Shown: piece by piece, positions 14,398-45,278 of the stretch
Layout: each line of letters begins with the position of its first letter
Position numbering within the stretch: the stretch's first letter is position 1
Assembly (NCBI RefSeq): GCF_001515525.1
Contig: NZ_BCNQ01000002.1
Coordinates: forward strand, 1 to 64,000
Origin: Piscicoccus intestinalis NBRC 104926
Lineage (GTDB): Bacteria; Actinomycetota; Actinomycetes; Actinomycetales; Dermatophilaceae
Reading direction: 5' to 3'
DNA: 64,000 nucleotides
Notes under the pieces: generated by a model
The model's database searches: none
The model's input: the letters and a program-made list of their open reading frames with translations, nothing else
Told to the model about the DNA's origin: nothing
Translations under genes and position numbers: made by a program

Positions 14398-14500
14398 GCG
14401 CCCATTCATCCACCGTCGCACCGATCCGGCAATGCCTGGCCTTCGCTACCGTGAGAGCGCATCGGGGCGGGACACAGACCTCAGAAGGGCGGTTCGACGA

Positions 14501-15079
14501 ATGCGCAGCGAACTGGACAAGCTGGACGCCGGCGAGGAGTACCACTTCCTCGACCCCGGCGTCGTCGCCCGCAAGGAGACCGCGACCGCTGCCTGCCACG
14601 AGTTCAATTCGCTGGACCCACGGGACGTCGAGGCGCAGGTGCGGGTCATCACGGCGCTGTTCGGGTCGAGCGGCGCCGACATCTCCGTGCAGCAACCGTT
14701 CCGTTGCGACAACGGCGCGAACATCCACGTCGGGCAGGGTTTCCTGACGAACTACAACGTGACGATCCTCGACATCGCGCCGGTGCACATCGGCGATTAC
14801 GTGATGATCGGCCCGAACACCGTGATCACCACCGTCGGGCACCCGCTCTCGCGCCGCGGCCGGCGGGCCATGATGGCCAAGGCCGACCCGGTGACGATCG
14901 GCAGCGACGTGTGGATCGGCGGCAACTGCGTGATCCTGTCGGGCGTGAGCATCGGCGACAACGTCATCGTCGCCGCCGGTGCCGTCGTCACCAAGGACGT
15001 GCCGTCGAACTGCGTCGTCGCCGGGGTTCCGGCCCGCGTCGTCAAGGAGCTCGACCCGGAGCCGGAGCCGGAGTCATGA
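14501..15079 (+). CDS. Maltose/galactoside O-acetyltransferase family protein (LbH)
   Basis: A 192-residue trimeric left-handed beta-helix acetyltransferase of the LacA/Maa type. It has the N-terminal Mac domain ([23 protein letters not shown]), hexapeptide turns ([33 protein letters not shown]), the catalytic-His line [11 protein letters not shown] and a C-terminal [17 protein letters not shown] coil. It moves acetyl from acetyl-CoA to a sugar hydroxyl; the true acceptor is unknown. Its end overlaps the next gene at an ATGA junction. It diverges from gnd. Confidence 0.88.
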
Positions 15080-37799: not shown

Positions 37800-38483
37800 A
37801 TGAGCCAAGGAACCGCCCGCCCGCTCGAGACGCTGCGCCCCGCCTCCGAGGCCGAACTCGTCGCGGCGTTGCAGCGTGCCGCTCAGGAGGGGAGCCGACT
37901 GGTCGTCCGGCAGGGCTCGGTGGGCGCCCCCGACGCCGCCGACGCCGTCGATGTCGCTGACGTCGTCGTGGAGCCCGATCACCAGGGCATCGATGTCAAC
38001 ACCGACGGGTGCGCGGTCGACGACATGGCGTTCTGCGGGGCGCCGGTCGCGACGGTCGCCGCCGGTCAGGACTGGGACGCCCTCGTCACCCTCGCCGTCG
38101 ACAGCGGCTGGGTGGGCCTGGAGGCCCTCGCCGGCATCCCGGGTCGCGTCGGCGCCGTCGTCGCCGACAACGTCACCGCCCACGGGCAGCAGCCGAGCGA
38201 CACCGTCGCGTCCGTGCGCACCTGGGACCGACAGACTCAGCGGCAGCGCACGTTTCCCATGATCGACTGCGAGTTCGCGCCCGGTCGTTCGCGTTTCCAG
38301 GAGCTGTTGGACGACGGCACTGTGCGGTACGTCGTGCTCGACGTCGCCTTCCTCTTCCAGCAGGGCGATCTGTCGGCGCCGATCCGCGACGAAGCTCTCG
38401 CCGCCGCCCTCGGAGCCCGTGTCGGGGCTCGCGTGCCGCTGGCCGAGGTACGGGAGGCGGCGCTGGGCCTGACTTCGGCCTGA
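37800..38483 (+). CDS. Degenerate, truncated MurB-like protein
   Basis: 227 residues that align along MurB (UDP-N-acetylenolpyruvoylglucosamine reductase) from the FAD domain to the start of domain 3. Clear matches are VAAGQDWDALVTLAVDSGWVGLEALAGIPG, NVTAHGQQPSDTVASVR, RYVVLDVAF and PLAEVREAALGL. The FAD-binding GGGSN loop is not present (RQGSVG instead), the FAYRSS motif is FAPGRS, and the C-terminal substrate domain with its catalytic Glu is absent. The end lies in a tandem GGCCTGACTTC duplication (38466-38490). It cannot be a normal MurB. It could be a decayed paralogue, or a protein that has kept only a structural role. Confidence 0.75.
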   Translation: MSQGTARPLETLRPASEAELVAALQRAAQEGSRLVVRQGSVGAPDAADAVDVADVVVEPDHQGIDVNTDGCAVDDMAFCGAPVATVAAGQDWDALVTLAVDSGWVGLEALAGIPGRVGAVVADNVTAHGQQPSDTVASVRTWDRQTQRQRTFPMIDCEFAPGRSRFQELLDDGTVRYVVLDVAFLFQQGDLSAPIRDEALAAALGARVGARVPLAEVREAALGLTSA

Positions 38484-38524: not shown

Positions 38525-39181
38525 TCAGGCGCCCGCGCCGCGCAGAATCGCGTCGACGCCGTAGGCGAAGGCCGCTCTCGCCGACTCGTCGTCGAACTGC
38601 CCGTGCCGGGCGGCGTCACCGGTCGGGTCTGCCGCATCGGCCGATCCGCTCGCGCCGCTCTTACGGATGCCGGCGCGGGCGAGTTCGGCGTAGTTCTGCT
38701 GCTCGGCGACCGATCCGAGCACGAAATGCACGAGCGTGCGTGCGGCCCAGTCGGCCTCGCGCTCCGGTAGTGCGTTCGACAGCACTCGCCGAAACGGCTG
38801 CAGCGGCACGGGGGCGTCCGGGTGGAGCGCCCGGGAGAACGAGACGATCTCGGCACCGTCGCGCACGGCCAGCAACGAGTCGCGCAGGTCCACGGCGAGT
38901 TCATGGGCGCTGCGGACGGCTTCCGCGCCGACCGCGGCACCGGTGGCGGCACCGGCTCCCTCAGCACCGGCGCTCTCGGCTCCGTCGGCGAACGGCGGTG
39001 CGGCCAGGATCCGTTCGGCCAACAGGGCCAGCAGTTCTTGCTTGCTGTCGACGTGCCAGTAGAGGGCGCCGGGGGCGACGTTCAGTTCGGTCGCGACGCC
39101 CCGCATCGACAGCGACGACAGCCCCGCGGCCTGCACGAGACGCAGGGCGGCGTCGCCGATCGCGTCGCGGCTCAGGGCCAC
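38525..39181 (-). CDS. bioQ: TetR-family repressor of biotin synthesis (BioQ-type)
   Basis: 218 residues. The N-terminal TetR HTH reads IGDAALRLVQAAGLSSLSMRGVATELNVAPGALYWHVDSKQELLALLAERI, followed by a helical ligand domain with an Ala/Gly-rich insert. GTG 39181 is used, with AGGGAGG seven bases upstream. It diverges from bioB across a 60-bp gap that holds two TGAAC-N3-GTTCA boxes, the pattern I recall for BioQ in Corynebacterium. It probably represses both itself and the bio operon. The effector is not deducible. Confidence 0.82.
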   Translation of the reverse strand: MALSRDAIGDAALRLVQAAGLSSLSMRGVATELNVAPGALYWHVDSKQELLALLAERILAAPPFADGAESAGAEGAGAATGAAVGAEAVRSAHELAVDLRDSLLAVRDGAEIVSFSRALHPDAPVPLQPFRRVLSNALPEREADWAARTLVHFVLGSVAEQQNYAELARAGIRKSGASGSADAADPTGDAARHGQFDDESARAAFAYGVDAILRGAGA

Positions 39182-39206: not shown

Positions 39207-39219
39207 TGAACAGCGTTCA
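39207..39219. promoter_or_regulatory. BioQ-type operator 1
   Basis: TGAAC-AGC-GTTCA, a perfect 13-bp dyad, 26 bp upstream of the repressor start and 23 bp upstream of bioB. It is in position to block the repressor promoter and, with operator 2, the bioB promoter. Confidence 0.75.
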
Positions 39220-39233
39220 GCCGGCTCGGTAGC

Positions 39234-39250
39234 CTTGAACAATGTTCAAG
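39234..39250. promoter_or_regulatory. BioQ-type operator 2, overlapping the bioB start codon
   Basis: CTTGAAC-AAT-GTTCAAG, a perfect 17-bp dyad whose spacer and right arm contain the bioB ATG (39242-39244). No ribosome site precedes that ATG, so bioB may be a leaderless message starting in or next to its own operator. Bound repressor would cover the transcription start directly. Confidence 0.78.
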
Positions 39251-40612
39251 ACCTACGCCGAGCTCGCCGAGCGCATCCTCGCAGGATCGCCGCTGTCCAC
39301 CGATGATGCCCTGGCCATCCTGCGCGGCGACGACGCCGACGTGATGAGTCTCGTCGCGGCCGCCGGCACGCTGCGGCGCCGGTACTTCGGCACCACCGTC
39401 AAGGCCAACTACCTCGTCAACCTCAAGTCGGGCCTGTGCCCCGAGGACTGCACCTACTGCTCCCAGCGGCTCGGCTCGAACGCGGACATCCCCGTCTACT
39501 CCTGGCTCAAGCCGGACGAGGCCGTCGAGCAGGCTGGCCACGGCATCAACGCCGGCGCCACCCGCGTGTGCCTCGTCTCCAGCGGCCGCGGACCGACCAA
39601 CCGCGACGTCGACCGCGTCGGCACGATCGTCGGCCGCCTCAAGGAGAGCCACCCCGACCTCGAGGTGTGCGCGTGCCTCGGCCTGCTCAAGGAGGGGCAG
39701 GCGCAGACGCTGCGCGAGGCTGGCGTCGACGCCTACAACCACAACCTCAACACCGCCGAATCGCACTACGACGACATCTGTTCCACGCACGACTACGCCG
39801 ACCGCGTCGACACCGTGCGGCAGGCCAAGGGCGCGGGCTTGTCGCCGTGCTCGGGCCTCATCGTCGGCATGGGCGAGACCGACGAGCAGATCGTCGAGGC
39901 GGTGTTCGCGCTGCGCGACATCGACAGCGACTCGATCCCGGTGAACTTCCTCATGCCGTTCGAGGGCACGCCGCTCGGTGACGCCGCGCTCACCAACACC
40001 GGATCGCCGTCCGACGCGGCCGCCAGGACCGAGCTGACCCGGCTGACCGGGCTCACCCCGGCCCGCTGCCTGCGCATCCTCGCGCTCGTCCGGTTCGCCG
40101 CCCCCGCCGCGGAACTGCGCATCGCCGGCGGCCGCGAGATGCACCTGCGCTCGCTGCAGCCACTCGCGCTGCACATCGCCAACTCCCTGTTCCTCGGCGA
40201 CTACCTGACCAGCGAGGGGCAGGCCACCCGTGATGACCTGGCGATGATCGCCGACGCCGGGTTCGTCGTCATCGGCGCCGACCGGCCAGGCGCCGCAACG
40301 AACTCCGCGAACCCCGGGGGCGGCGCGGACGTCGGCGGCCGCGTCGCTTCGGCCGACGCGGTCGCCGACCAGTGCGGGACCGGCGGCTGCGGCTCCGGCG
40401 GCTGCGGTGAGCACCAGGGAGTCCCGGCGTCGACCGGGGCCAGCGACGCGTTCGACGCGCCCGAGCCGGCCGAGTCGCTTGAGCCGGTGGAGTCGGGCGA
40501 GCTGGGCGACGAGGCGCTCGTCACCGTCGGCGCGTCGGGCCCGGTGACCGACGGCGTGCACGCGCCCGTGCGGCGCCGGGGCGCCGGCACGTCGCTGGCC
40601 CCCAACGCCTGA
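39242..40612 (+). CDS. bioB: Biotin synthase with Cys-rich C-terminal extension
   Basis: 456 residues, a radical-SAM enzyme that inserts sulfur into dethiobiotin. Cluster motif CPEDCTYC (Cys66, 70, 73); [34 protein letters not shown] and [11 protein letters not shown] follow the family. The normal core ends near residue 346. A tail of about 100 residues follows, containing a C-x4-C-x4-C motif ([12 protein letters not shown]) and then an acidic, Pro-rich stretch. The tail may bind iron or a cluster or serve as a docking arm. First gene of the operon; bioA follows after seven bases. Confidence 0.95.
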
Positions 40613-40619
40613 GCTGATC

Positions 40620-42122
40620 ATGTCCGTCGACACCGCGACCGACACCGCGACCGACCCTGCCATCGGCACCGCCACCGACCATGCCATCGACACGGCGGTG
40701 CAGCGCAGCGGGCGGGGCGCGGCCGGGCAGGCCGGCCCCCGCCTCATCGCCCGGGACCGGGGGCTCGTGTGGCACCCGTACGCCCCGCTGGACGGACCGG
40801 CTCCGTACGCGGTGCGCTCGGCCCGCGGCGTGCGGCTGGAGCTGGAGGCCGTCGACGGCGCGGCCTTCGATGCGATCGATGCGATGAGCTCGTGGTGGAG
40901 CGTGATCCACGGTTACCAAAACCAGGTGTTGGACAACGCGATTCGCGAGCGGGTCGGGGAGTTCTCGCACGTGATGTTCGGTGGCCTGACCCACGAGCCG
41001 GCGGTCGCGCTCGCGGAGCGGCTCGTCGCGCTGTCGCCCTCGCACGCACACGACAGCGATCGCGACATCGCGCACGTGTTCTTCGCCGACTCCGGGTCGG
41101 TGTCGATGGAGGTCGCGCTCAAGCTCGCCGTGCAGTACCAGGCGGCGCGCGGACGCCGCGGACGCGGGCGGTTCCTCGCGCTGCGCGGCGGCTACCACGG
41201 CGACACCCTCGGGGCGATGAGCGTGTGCGACCCGGTCGACGGCATGCACGCGGCGTTCCCCGCGCTGCTGCCGCGGCACGAGTTCCTGCCCCGGCCACCC
41301 GCGGCCCGGCTCGTCGACGGACGCAGGCAGCGTGCCGGGGTGAGCCCGGTCATCGATGGCGTCGCCGAGCTGCGTTCGGATCCAACGGAGGTCGAGGCCT
41401 GGATCACCCAGTTGGAGGCGACCGTCGCCGCGCACAGCGACACCCTCGCCGCGCTCGTCGCCGAGCCGATCCTGCAGGGCGCCGGCGGCATGCACGTGTG
41501 GGCGCCGGAATGCCTGGCCGCGATGCGGCGGGTGGCGGACGACCACGGGCTGCTCCTGCTGCTCGACGAGATCGCCACCGGATTCGGCCGCACCGGAAAG
41601 CTGTTCGCCAGCGAGTGGGCCGGCGTGGCGCCCGACATCAGGTGCGTCGGCAAGGCCCTCACCGGCGGCTACCTGACGCTCGCCGCGACGACGTGCACCC
41701 GGGAGGTCGGGGCGGCGATCACCGCCTCGGAGCATCGGGCGCTGCTGCACGGCCCGACGTTCATGGCCAACCCGCTCGCCACGTCGGCGGCGCTCGCCTC
41801 GCTCGGGCTCGTGCAGGAGCACTGGGCGCGTCAGGTGCCCGCGCTGCAGGACGGGCTGCGCCGGGCGCTCGCCCCGGCCGCGGCGCTGGACTGCGTGCAC
41901 GAGGTGCGGGTGCTCGGCGGTGTCGGCGTCGTGCAGCTGACCGCGCCCGTCGACGTGCCCGCGGTGACCCGGGCCGCGCTCGAACGCGGGGTCTGGGTGC
42001 GCCCGTTCCGTGACCTCGTCTACACGATGCCCCCGTACGTCAGCACGGAGGCGGACCTCGCGACGATCGGGGCGGCGGTCGTCGGCGCCATCGAGGCGGT
42101 GCACGAAGGACGCCCCGCATGA
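40620..42122 (+). CDS. bioA: Adenosylmethionine-8-amino-7-oxononanoate aminotransferase
   Basis: 500 residues, class III PLP aminotransferase that makes 7,8-diaminopelargonate. WHPYAPL near the start of the core, MSSWWSVIHGY, FADSGSVSMEVALK, GGYHGDTLGAMSV, LLLLDEIATGFGRTG and PLP-Lys in CVGKALTGGYLTLA are all present. A 30-residue Thr/Asp/Ala repeat tail (DTATDTATDPAIGTATD) precedes the family start and is probably disordered. It overlaps bioF at ATGA. Confidence 0.95.
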   Translation: MSVDTATDTATDPAIGTATDHAIDTAVQRSGRGAAGQAGPRLIARDRGLVWHPYAPLDGPAPYAVRSARGVRLELEAVDGAAFDAIDAMSSWWSVIHGYQNQVLDNAIRERVGEFSHVMFGGLTHEPAVALAERLVALSPSHAHDSDRDIAHVFFADSGSVSMEVALKLAVQYQAARGRRGRGRFLALRGGYHGDTLGAMSVCDPVDGMHAAFPALLPRHEFLPRPPAARLVDGRRQRAGVSPVIDGVAELRSDPTEVEAWITQLEATVAAHSDTLAALVAEPILQGAGGMHVWAPECLAAMRRVADDHGLLLLLDEIATGFGRTGKLFASEWAGVAPDIRCVGKALTGGYLTLAATTCTREVGAAITASEHRALLHGPTFMANPLATSAALASLGLVQEHWARQVPALQDGLRRALAPAAALDCVHEVRVLGGVGVVQLTAPVDVPAVTRAALERGVWVRPFRDLVYTMPPYVSTEADLATIGAAVVGAIEAVHEGRPA

Positions 42123-43393
42123 CCGCGATGTGGCAATGGCTTGAGACAACGCGCGCGGCGCGGGAGTCCCGGGGCCTGGCGCGGACCGCTCGCGTGCGGG
42201 TCGAGGGCACCGGCGGCCTTGACGGTTCCGCGGGCTCCGACGGCCTCGGCGGGCTCGTTGACCTGGCCTCCAACGACTACCTCGGGATGGCCCGCGACCC
42301 GCGGGTGGTCGCGGCGGGCCTGTCCGCGCTGCGCACCTACGGAGCCGGTGCCCGGGCCTCGCGGGTCGTCACCGGCACGCTGCCGCCGCACGAGGAGGCC
42401 GAGCGCGCGCTGTGCGAGCTGACCGGCCAGGAGAGCGCGCTCGTGCTCGCCTCCGGCTACGCCGCGAACATCGCGGTCGTCACCGCCCTCGGCGGCCCGG
42501 GCACGCTGCTCGTCACCGACGAGCACATCCACGCGTCGGTGCACGACGCGGCCCGCCTCTCCCGCAGCCCGCGGGTCACCACCCCGCACGGCGACGTCGA
42601 GGCCGTCGAGGCGGCCCTCGCGGCACGCGCCGAGCCGCGGGCGCTGGTCGTCGTCGAGTCGATCTACTCGGTGCTCGGCGACGCCGCCGACCTGCCCGCA
42701 CTGGCGGCGGTGTGCGCCCGCCACGACGCGCTGCTGCTCGTCGACGAGGCCCATGGGATCGGCGTCGTCGGCGACGGACGCGGCGGCGTGCACGCCGCGG
42801 GTCTGGCCGGGCACGACCACGTCATCCTCACCGCGACGCTGTCGAAAGCGGTGGGCGCTCAGGGCGGGGCGGTGCTCGGGCCGGCCCGACTCCGAAGGCA
42901 TCTCGTCGACGTGGCGCGCGCGTTCATCTTCGACACCGGGCTGGCTCCGGCCTCGGCGGCCGCCGCCGCCCGGGCCTGCCGCATCATCGCCGACGAGCCC
43001 GAGCGGGTGGCCGGAATCGCCCGGCGGGCGGGGATCGTCGCGCAGACGTGCGGGGTGCCGCAGGCGGCCGGGGCCGTGCAGTCGCTGCCGATGCGCAGCC
43101 CGGAGGCCGCGGTCGCGGCGACCGCCGAGTTGGAGGCCCGCGGCGTGCTCGTCGGCTGCTTCCGCCCGCCGAGCGTGCCCGACGGCGTCTCGCGGCTGCG
43201 GCTGTGCGCCGACGCCGGTCTCGACGTCGAGGCGGTGACGCGGGCCGCCGAGTTGGTCGCTCGGGTGGCCGACGCCCACGGGAGGGCGAACCCGCCAGCG
43301 ACGGAGTCGACACGGGGTGCACCCGACGGCGCGTCGGGAGTCGAGTTCCGCGGCGAGGCGACAGTTCTCGAACCGGCCGGGCCCCGGCCATGA
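42119..43393 (+). CDS. bioF: 8-amino-7-oxononanoate synthase
   Basis: 424 residues, an alpha-oxoamine synthase condensing a pimeloyl thioester with alanine. Visible: NDYLGMARDPRV, GAGARASRVVTGTLPPHEEAE, SALVLASGYAANIAV, DEAHGIGVVGDGRGG and PLP-Lys in TATLSKAVGAQGG. Its ATG overlaps the bioA stop and its stop overlaps the P450 start. A 40-residue low-complexity C-terminal tail follows the core. Confidence 0.95.
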   Translation: MTAMWQWLETTRAARESRGLARTARVRVEGTGGLDGSAGSDGLGGLVDLASNDYLGMARDPRVVAAGLSALRTYGAGARASRVVTGTLPPHEEAERALCELTGQESALVLASGYAANIAVVTALGGPGTLLVTDEHIHASVHDAARLSRSPRVTTPHGDVEAVEAALAARAEPRALVVVESIYSVLGDAADLPALAAVCARHDALLLVDEAHGIGVVGDGRGGVHAAGLAGHDHVILTATLSKAVGAQGGAVLGPARLRRHLVDVARAFIFDTGLAPASAAAAARACRIIADEPERVAGIARRAGIVAQTCGVPQAAGAVQSLPMRSPEAAVAATAELEARGVLVGCFRPPSVPDGVSRLRLCADAGLDVEAVTRAAELVARVADAHGRANPPATESTRGAPDGASGVEFRGEATVLEPAGPRP

Positions 43394-44556
43394 CCGCCGT
43401 CCCGTTGTCGCAATCACCTGATACATGCCCCATGCGGCCGCTGCTCGACGCGCGGGCCGGCGACCTCCTGCGCGTCAACGAGCCACAGGCGGTGCGCGAG
43501 GTGTTGCGCCGGGTCGAGAACTTCGCGCCCGACAACGCCCTGACCGCCGTCACCCCGCTGGGCCCGGACGCCCTGCGCCGCCTGGCCCGTGCGCGGTTCG
43601 CGCTGCCACCGGTGCTCGCGTCGGCCTCCGGCCCGGAGCACCGCCGGGTTCGCCGGGTCGTCGCCCGATTCCTCACGCCCGCACAGGTGGAGGCGGTGCG
43701 CCCGCTCGTCGTGGAGCTAACCCACGAGCGCGTGGACGCCGCTCGCCGCGAGCTGGCGGACGGCCGCGCCGTCGACCTCGCCGAGACGGTCTCGGCGCAC
43801 GTCGCCCCGGCCGTGTTCGGGCACCTCGTCGGGCTCGCGATGCCGTCGACGCCGGTGCTGCACCGCTGGAGCCGGCACTCCCTCGAGCTCTTCTGGGGCT
43901 ACCCGGACCCGCAGCGTCAGGTCGACCTCGCCGACAGCGCCGCCGAGCTGTTCGCGTGGCTGACCGACGCGGTCCACACCCGGGCGCCCGGCCGCCCCTC
44001 GCTGTTCGCCGCCCTCCGGGAGGCGGGTATTGATGAGCCGCGGCTGCGGTCGCTGGCGTTCTTCCTGCTCATCGGGGGCCAGGAGACGACCGCGATGCTC
44101 ACCGACATCGCGCTGCACGAGGCGCTCACCTCCGGCGCGTGGCGCTCGATCGCGCAGAGCCCCCAGGGCCCGGCGAGCGAGGCCGAGCAGCTCGTGCGGC
44201 GGATGCTCACTACTACCTCGTCCGTGCCGACCTGGCGCCGGATCGCGGTGCGCGACACCACGATCGGCGGTCGGGCTGTGGCGGCCGGCACGCCGGTGCT
44301 CGTCGAGCTGTGTCGCCACGATCGCGGCGACATCGACGACAGCCTCGCCTTCGGTTTCGGCGTGCACCGTTGCCTCGGAGCGCGGCTCGCGCCCCTGGAG
44401 GCCTCCACCGTGCTCGCCGAGACGGCGGCCGGGCTGCCCGAGGTGGTGCCGGCCGGCCCGGCTCCGGACTGGCTGCGATTGCTGTCGTTCCAGGCGCCGC
44501 GCACCGTGCTCGTGCGGCGGCGCAGTGAGCCTGTCGGGCAGGGCGGTTCGCGATGA
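43390..44556 (+). CDS. Cytochrome P450 in the biotin operon (candidate BioI-like pimeloyl-forming enzyme)
   Basis: A 388-residue P450: I-helix FLLIGGQETTAM (with acid/Thr pair), EQLVRRML (ExxR), RRIAVRDTTIGGRAVAAGTPV and heme-binding FGFGVHRCLGARLAPLE with Cys328. There is no membrane anchor, so it is a soluble type needing ferredoxin or flavodoxin partners. ATGA overlaps with both bioF and bioD make it an integral operon member. In Bacillus the P450 BioI cleaves acyl-ACP to pimeloyl-ACP, and the same task is proposed here. The distance from BioI by sequence was not measured. Confidence 0.88.
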   Translation: MTAVPLSQSPDTCPMRPLLDARAGDLLRVNEPQAVREVLRRVENFAPDNALTAVTPLGPDALRRLARARFALPPVLASASGPEHRRVRRVVARFLTPAQVEAVRPLVVELTHERVDAARRELADGRAVDLAETVSAHVAPAVFGHLVGLAMPSTPVLHRWSRHSLELFWGYPDPQRQVDLADSAAELFAWLTDAVHTRAPGRPSLFAALREAGIDEPRLRSLAFFLLIGGQETTAMLTDIALHEALTSGAWRSIAQSPQGPASEAEQLVRRMLTTTSSVPTWRRIAVRDTTIGGRAVAAGTPVLVELCRHDRGDIDDSLAFGFGVHRCLGARLAPLEASTVLAETAAGLPEVVPAGPAPDWLRLLSFQAPRTVLVRRRSEPVGQGGSR

Positions 44557-45278
44557 ACCGGGTGCTCGTCGTCACCGGCACCGACACCGACGTCGGCAAG
44601 ACCGTCGCGACGGCCGCGATCGCCGCCGCCCTCGGGCGCACCGGCTCCGTCGCGGTCGACAAGCCGGTGCAGACCGGCGTGCGACCCGGCGAGCCCGGCG
44701 ACGTCGAGGAGATCGCGCGCCTGGCCGGGGCGGTCGCCATCAGCGTGGGCGCCCGGCTCAAGCAACCGATGGCGCCGGTGCAGGCCGCCCGCCGCGAGGG
44801 TGCGCCGGCGACGCTGCCGACCCTCGCCGAGCACGTCGCCCGGATCACTGCGCTCGCCGCGCTGGCGAAGGATGCCCGGGGCGCCGACACGGTGCTCGTC
44901 GAGGGCTCGGGCGGCCTGCTCGTGCAACTCGACGAGTCGGGCCGCACGATTGCCGACTTCGCGCACGCCCTCCAGCAGCACCGAGCTCTCGACTCCCGCG
45001 TCGTTGTCGTGGCGCGCGCCGGGCTCGGCACGCTCAACCACACCGAGCTGACGCTGGAGGCCCTACGCGCGCGGGGCCTCGCGGTCGCGGGCATCGTCAT
45101 CGGGTCGTGGCCGCGCGAGCCGGACGCGATCGCCCTCGACAACCGCGACCACCTCGGCGCGCTCGGCGTCCCGCTCCTCGGCGCGATCCCCGAGGGCGCG
45201 CCGCGATCGGCACCCGAGACGTTCCGGCGCGAGGCGCCGGGTTGGCTCCCGGGATTGGTCGGCCTCGAAAACCCCTGA
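44553..45278 (+). CDS. bioD: Dethiobiotin synthetase
   Basis: 241 residues. ATP-dependent carboxylation of diaminopelargonate to dethiobiotin. P-loop GTDTDVGKT (residues 9-17), VDKPVQTGV, VEGSGGLLVQLDESG and RAGLGTLNHTELT match the family. It is the last gene of the operon; its stop lies 3 bp from the stop of the convergent DUF2255 gene. With bioB, A and F it completes the ring-assembly steps of biotin synthesis. Confidence 0.95.
   Translation: MNRVLVVTGTDTDVGKTVATAAIAAALGRTGSVAVDKPVQTGVRPGEPGDVEEIARLAGAVAISVGARLKQPMAPVQAARREGAPATLPTLAEHVARITALAALAKDARGADTVLVEGSGGLLVQLDESGRTIADFAHALQQHRALDSRVVVVARAGLGTLNHTELTLEALRARGLAVAGIVIGSWPREPDAIALDNRDHLGALGVPLLGAIPEGAPRSAPETFRREAPGWLPGLVGLENP

Follow-up and report, generated by a model that had tools for sequence, protein, structure and literature searches.

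A cytochrome P450 in the biotin operon of Piscicoccus intestinalis represents a distinct actinobacterial lineage that is linked to bio genes and has undergone a rare structural loss

The biotin operon of Piscicoccus intestinalis NBRC 104926 contains, as its fourth gene, a cytochrome P450 from a distinct actinobacterial lineage that is linked to bio genes on both chromosomes and plasmids and carries a rare structural loss. By analogy with BioI of Bacillus subtilis, the most likely role of this P450 is pimelate formation, as a heme-thiolate enzyme providing the pimelate portion of biotin, a reading to which we give a probability of roughly two in three. The DNA analyzed, referred to here as the window, is a stretch of 64,000 nucleotides from contig NZ_BCNQ01000002.1.

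The gene order of the operon is bioB-A-F-P450-D. NCBIfam cut-offs are passed by bioB (39242..40612 (+), biotin synthase, 456 aa; TIGR00433, 363.1 bits, cut-off 225), bioA (40620..42122 (+), DAPA aminotransferase, 500 aa; TIGR00508, 473.5 bits, cut-off 405) and bioD (44553..45278 (+), dethiobiotin synthase, 241 aa; TIGR00347, 114.1 bits, cut-off 83.3), and bioF (42119..43393 (+), KAPA synthase, 424 aa) is assigned from its operon position and a TIGR00858 score of 330.4 bits, below the strict cut-off of 426.45. The P450 frame at 43390..44556 (+) translates to 388 aa and a stop codon, sharing an ATGA with bioF at 43390-43393 and another with bioD at 44553-44556; bioA and bioF also share ATGA at 42119-42122. 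Its assignment as a P450 draws on the translation, a Pfam p450 match of 31.4 bits (cut-off 22.8) spanning 28 residues around the cysteine, a phmmer match to P450 5gwe (E 5.7e-26) and an AlphaFold2 model with a predicted P450 fold (pLDDT 83.3, pTM 0.86). A PF00067 scan of the P. intestinalis genome returned seven matches, the bio-operon P450 not among them; it was picked up in the genome by a protein query and not by the Pfam p450 profile. For one close genome pair (G014/G062) the dN/dS of the P450 is 0.206, and the values for bioA, bioD, bioF and bioB are 0.213, 0.217, 0.304 and 0.090, respectively. Because homologues adjoin bioF and bioD in other genomes, and because dN/dS is purifying, the linkage of P450 and bio genes goes beyond chance. 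The operon, in which the P450 overlaps each of its neighbors by an ATGA, is genuine, and the junctions and the linkage in relatives bear out an earlier sequence-only reading of this DNA that had called the P450 a core operon member. That reading had also seen none of bioC, bioH, bioW and bioZ, which is true of the operon itself by Pfam and NCBIfam annotation. None of the operon's genes was recognized as encoding a redox partner.

Upstream of the operon and divergent from bioB lies a TetR-type gene (38525..39136 (-), Pfam TetR_N 1.7e-07; start codon uncertain, 39106 or 39136) that is BioQ-like by position and operator. Two perfect palindromes precede bioB, TGAAC-N3-GTTCA at 39207..39219 and TTGAAC-N3-GTTCAA at 39235..39249 (TGAAC core from 39236), the second of which spans the bioB start codon; with the adjacent TetR gene, they make the operon a candidate member of a BioQ regulon, and the arrangement agrees with BioQ control through a TGAAC-N3-GTTCA motif as given in the available portion of PMC3398298. 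The perfect 15-base TTGAAC-N3-GTTCAA site occurs at one place in the P. intestinalis genome, the bioB start codon. Allowing one mismatch adds three further places, one of them the neighboring site, and a reversed control pattern gave two. The gene and the motif are observed, and the operon would probably be repressed by the BioQ-like TetR protein through the two sites. BioQ-type sites are also present upstream of bioB in other operons of the family, both with and without a P450, and none with up to one mismatch was found in the regions of G156, Arthrobacter sp. StoSoilB13, Arthrobacter sp. FW306-05-C, G350 and Streptantibioticus cattleyicolor. Near the regulator gene, at 37800-38483 of the window, is a short MurB-like protein of 227 aa that matches part of the MurB profile (NF010478, 133.8 bits; cut-off 231).

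An order-level search of 317 genomes gave nine matches below 1e-90, all nine bio-linked, with the order F-P450-D in the window, G736, G746, G756 and G775 and the order F-D-P450 in G156, G650, G766 and G823; around the six weaker matches (E 1e-46 to 1e-49) the 4-kb loci contain no bio gene. At the phylum level (396 genomes), all three matches above 200 bits (window, G156 and G350) are bio-linked, and the loci of weaker matches are without any bio gene. Five P450s that are 49-54% identical to the window P450 sit between bioF and bioD, in Citricoccus sp. CH26A (L008), G014, G062, G134 and G140. Plasmids of Arthrobacter sp. StoSoilB13 and FW306-05-C carry bioB-A-F-D-P450, with bioF/bioD and bioD/P450 each overlapping by four bases in the latter, and on pSCAT of S. 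cattleyicolor the order is bioD-bioB-P450, facing bioF. The FW306-05-C operon is complete at L202:3446-9122 (NZ_CP084557.1), on a plasmid typed as conjugative, and is flanked on both sides by IS110 transposases. The G350 locus (L182:7176-9026) holds a distant, EXXR-bearing, bio-linked P450 with a small class I methyltransferase directly upstream. The G140 P450 frame, L091:1522-2778 (-), begins with about four copies of an in-frame repeat of ~18 residues (PNSPNWTVTH...), and the true start may lie downstream of the repeat.

For the phylogeny, 128 loci with P450 matches yielded 115 complete frames of 330-440 aa, a filter that left out CYP116B-like fusions; alignment A2 holds 49 sequences, for which 47 of 77 listed frames were used, and the tree, with 21 of 119 outgroup sequences, was midpoint-rooted for drawing. 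In the tree, the 16 close relatives group together (support 100/100); G823 is next to join (99/95), followed by G350 and S. cattleyicolor, with 100/99 for all 19. The two arrangements F-P450-D and F-D-P450 are separated by a single change on the tree. BioI is placed among other P450s, apart from the 19-member clade, and the P450 has an origin of its own in a bio-linked lineage of actinobacteria. Here the sequence-only reading was right in taking the P450 to be independent of BioI, and its idea of a new subfamily holds as to divergence and not as to rank; identity to BioI is 18-19% in structure-based alignments, and by the rule that more than 40% identity makes one CYP family (PMC3599690, in the text available) the window P450 belongs to another P450 family. 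As for the bio linkage of orthologues, it is found in 15 of the 16 close relatives (window included; two on Arthrobacter plasmids) and in all three distant ones (G823, G350 and S. cattleyicolor). The exception, of the kind that the reading had named as speaking against it, is a solitary P450 of the EXXR-less clade on a conjugative plasmid of Paenarthrobacter YJN-5 (L203:7974-9116, NZ_CP053546.1), with no bio genes within 8 kb and no bioF on the 225-kb record.

BioI (CYP107H1, PDB 3ejb/3ejd/3eje) is likewise a biotin-operon P450 and shares the P450 fold (Z 33.0 to 3eje_D), and it is by analogy with this enzyme that the window P450 likely performs the same step. A structure search gave Z 35.7 to 5xjn, 35.6 to CREJ (5gwe) and about 33 to BioI-ACP complexes, values in a range common to many P450s, so that these matches show fold and not function. 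CREJ and the CYP116B heme domains are the nearest solved sequences and folds, but identity is about 24-26%, the aligned CREJ keeps EXXR and the meander, and we know of no biotin link for either.

The oddest feature of this P450, absent from the sequence-only reading, is the loss of EXXR, which is present in almost every P450. As judged from the alignments, EXXR and the canonical meander are lost in one branch, in which the heme ligand, the heme-contact residues and the I helix are kept. A gapless K-helix alignment shows the Glu and Arg of EXXR both absent from all 16 close relatives (BioI is excluded from the counts over these 16 sequences), and both retained by BioI, by the three distant relatives and by 119 of 119 other P450s. 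In the window P450 the K-helix place of EXXR is taken by R-M-L-T (residues 271-274, 44200..44211 (+)), and in most of the EXXR-less clade the helix reads VRxxLATESSVPTWRR; the Glu is replaced by R, H, S, L, Q or A and the Arg by A, T or L. A rival register, that of default MAFFT (A2), sets Q267-L-V-R270 on EXXR, with the Glu kept in 3/16 and the Arg in 15/16. We prefer the gapless register because it gives a near residue-by-residue match with EXXR-keeping bio-linked P450s (G823 VLEVLRTDTPVHTWRRR versus G775 VRRVLATESSVHTWRRR); the AlphaFold2 model, being built on A2, is no evidence on this point. The Glu appears lost under either register, whereas loss of the Arg depends on the register and the Arg might be kept. 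The canonical meander, RDPxxF...FDxxR, was not seen in ten aligned rows and six further sequences. Between the strand that precedes the meander and the cysteine, 12 of the 16 have 24-30 residues and the other four (G156 and the three plasmid copies) have 40-44; the spacing is 37-40 in the 119 other P450s, and 38-39 in BioI as in the three distant relatives. Retained throughout the 16 are the I-helix G-Q-E-T-T, the cysteine with the His two positions ahead of it, and the His and Arg of the C helix. In the window P450, sequence and alignment place the I-helix motif GGQETT (residues 229-234) at 44074..44091 (+) and the heme-binding loop FGFGVHRCLG, with Cys328 and in agreement with the FxxGxxxCxG heme-ligand motif, at 44350..44379 (+). 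The N-terminus is short, with L205, L206, L207 and L209 at 360-375 aa under the chosen start codons. Taken together, these features suggest a working heme protein without the ERR triad. A partial precedent is CYP157 of Streptomyces, also without a full EXXR, which shows that EXXR is not obligatory in P450s (PMC3599690, in the accessible text); on the quoted motifs alone (EVLW and EQSLW), CYP157 keeps the Glu and exchanges Arg for Trp, whereas the window clade replaces both and is bio-linked. BioI differs from the window P450 in keeping both EXXR and the meander.

BioW (PF03744) was found in none of 148 genomes of the family, with a profile that, of 14 controls, matched B. subtilis and M. jannaschii. 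No BioC match (TIGR02072) reached the cut-off in the 148, against one of 14 controls, and methyltransferase matches below the cut-off occur in all; such weaker matches in every genome may include a divergent BioC. Three KAS III-type matches, inspected by eye, lie in the P. intestinalis genome, where a BioZ route may therefore exist; of these, the match located on the window's contig lies some 41 kb away from the operon, which thus has no linked bioZ. TIGR00858 was tried and rejected as a BioF detector. It failed to separate BioF from related acyltransferases, and counts were therefore made with the window BioF at E below 1e-50, which found BioF in 71 of 148 family genomes. The P450 orthologue is present in 5 of 149, all five among the 71; in the 66 others of the sampled bioF-bearing genomes this P450, BioW and an above-cut-off BioC are all missing, which means that another pimelate source exists in the family. 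Examples are L189, L190, L191, L194 and L198, and several of these genomes carry plain bioB-A-F-D operons with BioQ-type sites. The scanned neighbors of some P450-less bio operons were ordinary or without a Pfam match, with no other pimelate gene among them. Within genus g17 the P450 occurs in both genomes with bioB over the cut-off and is absent from seven others, and in genus g1 the congeners G006 and G056 have neither bioF nor the P450, so that in its own lineages the P450 comes and goes together with the operon. The sequence-only reading, which had proposed searching the genome for such genes, is partly supported as a whole: in P. intestinalis bioW was not found, and bioC gave none above the cut-off but did give weaker matches (best E 8e-15).

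In the route that we favor, low biotin would cause the P450 and BioF to be made together, and the P450 would take acyl-ACP (or acyl-CoA) from fatty-acid synthesis. Successive C7/C8 oxidation, as for BioI, would then break the C-C bond to yield a pimeloyl thioester for BioF, and BioF, BioA, BioD and BioB would complete biotin; the electron donor would probably be a ferredoxin or flavodoxin whose gene lies elsewhere. BioI forms pimeloyl-ACP from long acyl-ACP according to the part of PMC12915131 available, which also describes a diiron oxygenase, BioE, as forming the pimeloyl moiety out of long-chain acyl substrates; compared by description, BioE is non-heme and ferritin-like, unlike the P450. 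A pimelate role is favored by the ATGA coupling, the bio linkage in two gene orders (15/16 and 3/3), the BioQ-type sites, the lack of BioW and above-cut-off BioC (each 0/148) with all P450 carriers bioF-bearing, the heme and I-helix residues kept in 16/16, and a dN/dS like those of bioA and bioD. Against it stand the YJN-5 relative on a plasmid without bioF, the lack of a redox partner gene in the operon and of a BioQ-type site in the G156, StoSoilB13 and FW306-05-C regions, and the loss of EXXR and meander, with which ordinary P450 activity could have been lost as well; the 66 of 71 genomes without the P450 argue against simple necessity. A fuller reading, which we advance tentatively and at somewhat under even odds, makes this a second P450 route to pimelate, with an evolutionary origin of its own; the P450 would be the sole and essential source (since BioW is missing), would achieve demanding multi-step C-C cleavage even with the ERR triad completely lost, and would travel on plasmids with bioBAFD as a ready-made biotin prototrophy module.

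Those same 66 genomes, lacking P450, BioW and above-cut-off BioC, would be expected if the P450 were an accessory or redundant enzyme that makes some pimeloyl thioester, with the main source being a route common to P450-less relatives. In B. subtilis BioI itself can be done without (PMC7645780 and PMC12915131, both in the portions available), a fact that speaks for this alternative and against the favored role. We nonetheless consider this unlikely, given the long retention of the P450 in the operon, its translational coupling and the purifying selection on it; moreover, BioI works beside BioW (PMC12915131, same portion) and is redundant there, and BioW was not found in the P. intestinalis genome.

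Loss of EXXR and meander in all 16 would also suit a helper protein derived from a P450 but devoid of oxygenase activity, such as a stabilizer or activator of BioF comparable to the P450-derived glycosyltransferase activators, and weak matches to the profile of those activators (TIGR04515) were obtained for the S. cattleyicolor relative (111 bits, cut-off 343) and G350 (76.3 bits). The window P450, however, has no TIGR04515 match at E 0.01, and all 16 have retained the cysteine, the His and Arg that contact the heme, and the I-helix E-T-T. The glycosyltransferase activator family has lost its cysteine, which counts further against a helper, and we regard this explanation as improbable. Action on another substrate, such as a modified biotin precursor or an antimetabolite, is more improbable still: Streptomyces P450s do take part in the synthesis of biotin-pathway antimetabolites (PMC13336041, available text), but the window operon is plain bioBAFD plus P450, the FW306-05-C plasmid region has the same set, and no ketosynthase, ACP or NRPS is annotated beside the latter.

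The Streptomyces example is MkpG, also an actinobacterial P450 beside a BioF-like enzyme, although it sits in an antimetabolite cluster with an ACP and a ketosynthase and is likened here by description and not by sequence; the available text of PMC13336041 calls it a BioI-homologous P450 whose deletion abolishes alpha-methyl-KAPA, which makes it, like BioI, a precedent for the favored role. An mkp-type cluster on pSCAT of S. cattleyicolor was considered and rejected, with no ketosynthase or ACP among five neighbor proteins scanned.

Pimelate formation, the role that we prefer, can be addressed in culturable strains, the P450 being present in biotin operons of genomes without BioW. The 16 EXXR-less sequences and their bio-linked relatives that keep EXXR form a natural set for P450 chemistry. 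Surveys that class EXXR-less proteins as fragments or pseudogenes, as in the accessible part of PMC6408508, would discard this P450. Among the matches listed from the open-access literature, no title or abstract describes such a P450-bearing bio operon.

The BioB proteins of the window (39242-40612) and of L008 (1898-3244) both end in a Cys-rich C-terminal tail. At type II bioB loci, for example L182, a separate small Cys-rich protein is encoded downstream of bioB (14419-14664) and perhaps resembles the BsaP auxiliary protein.
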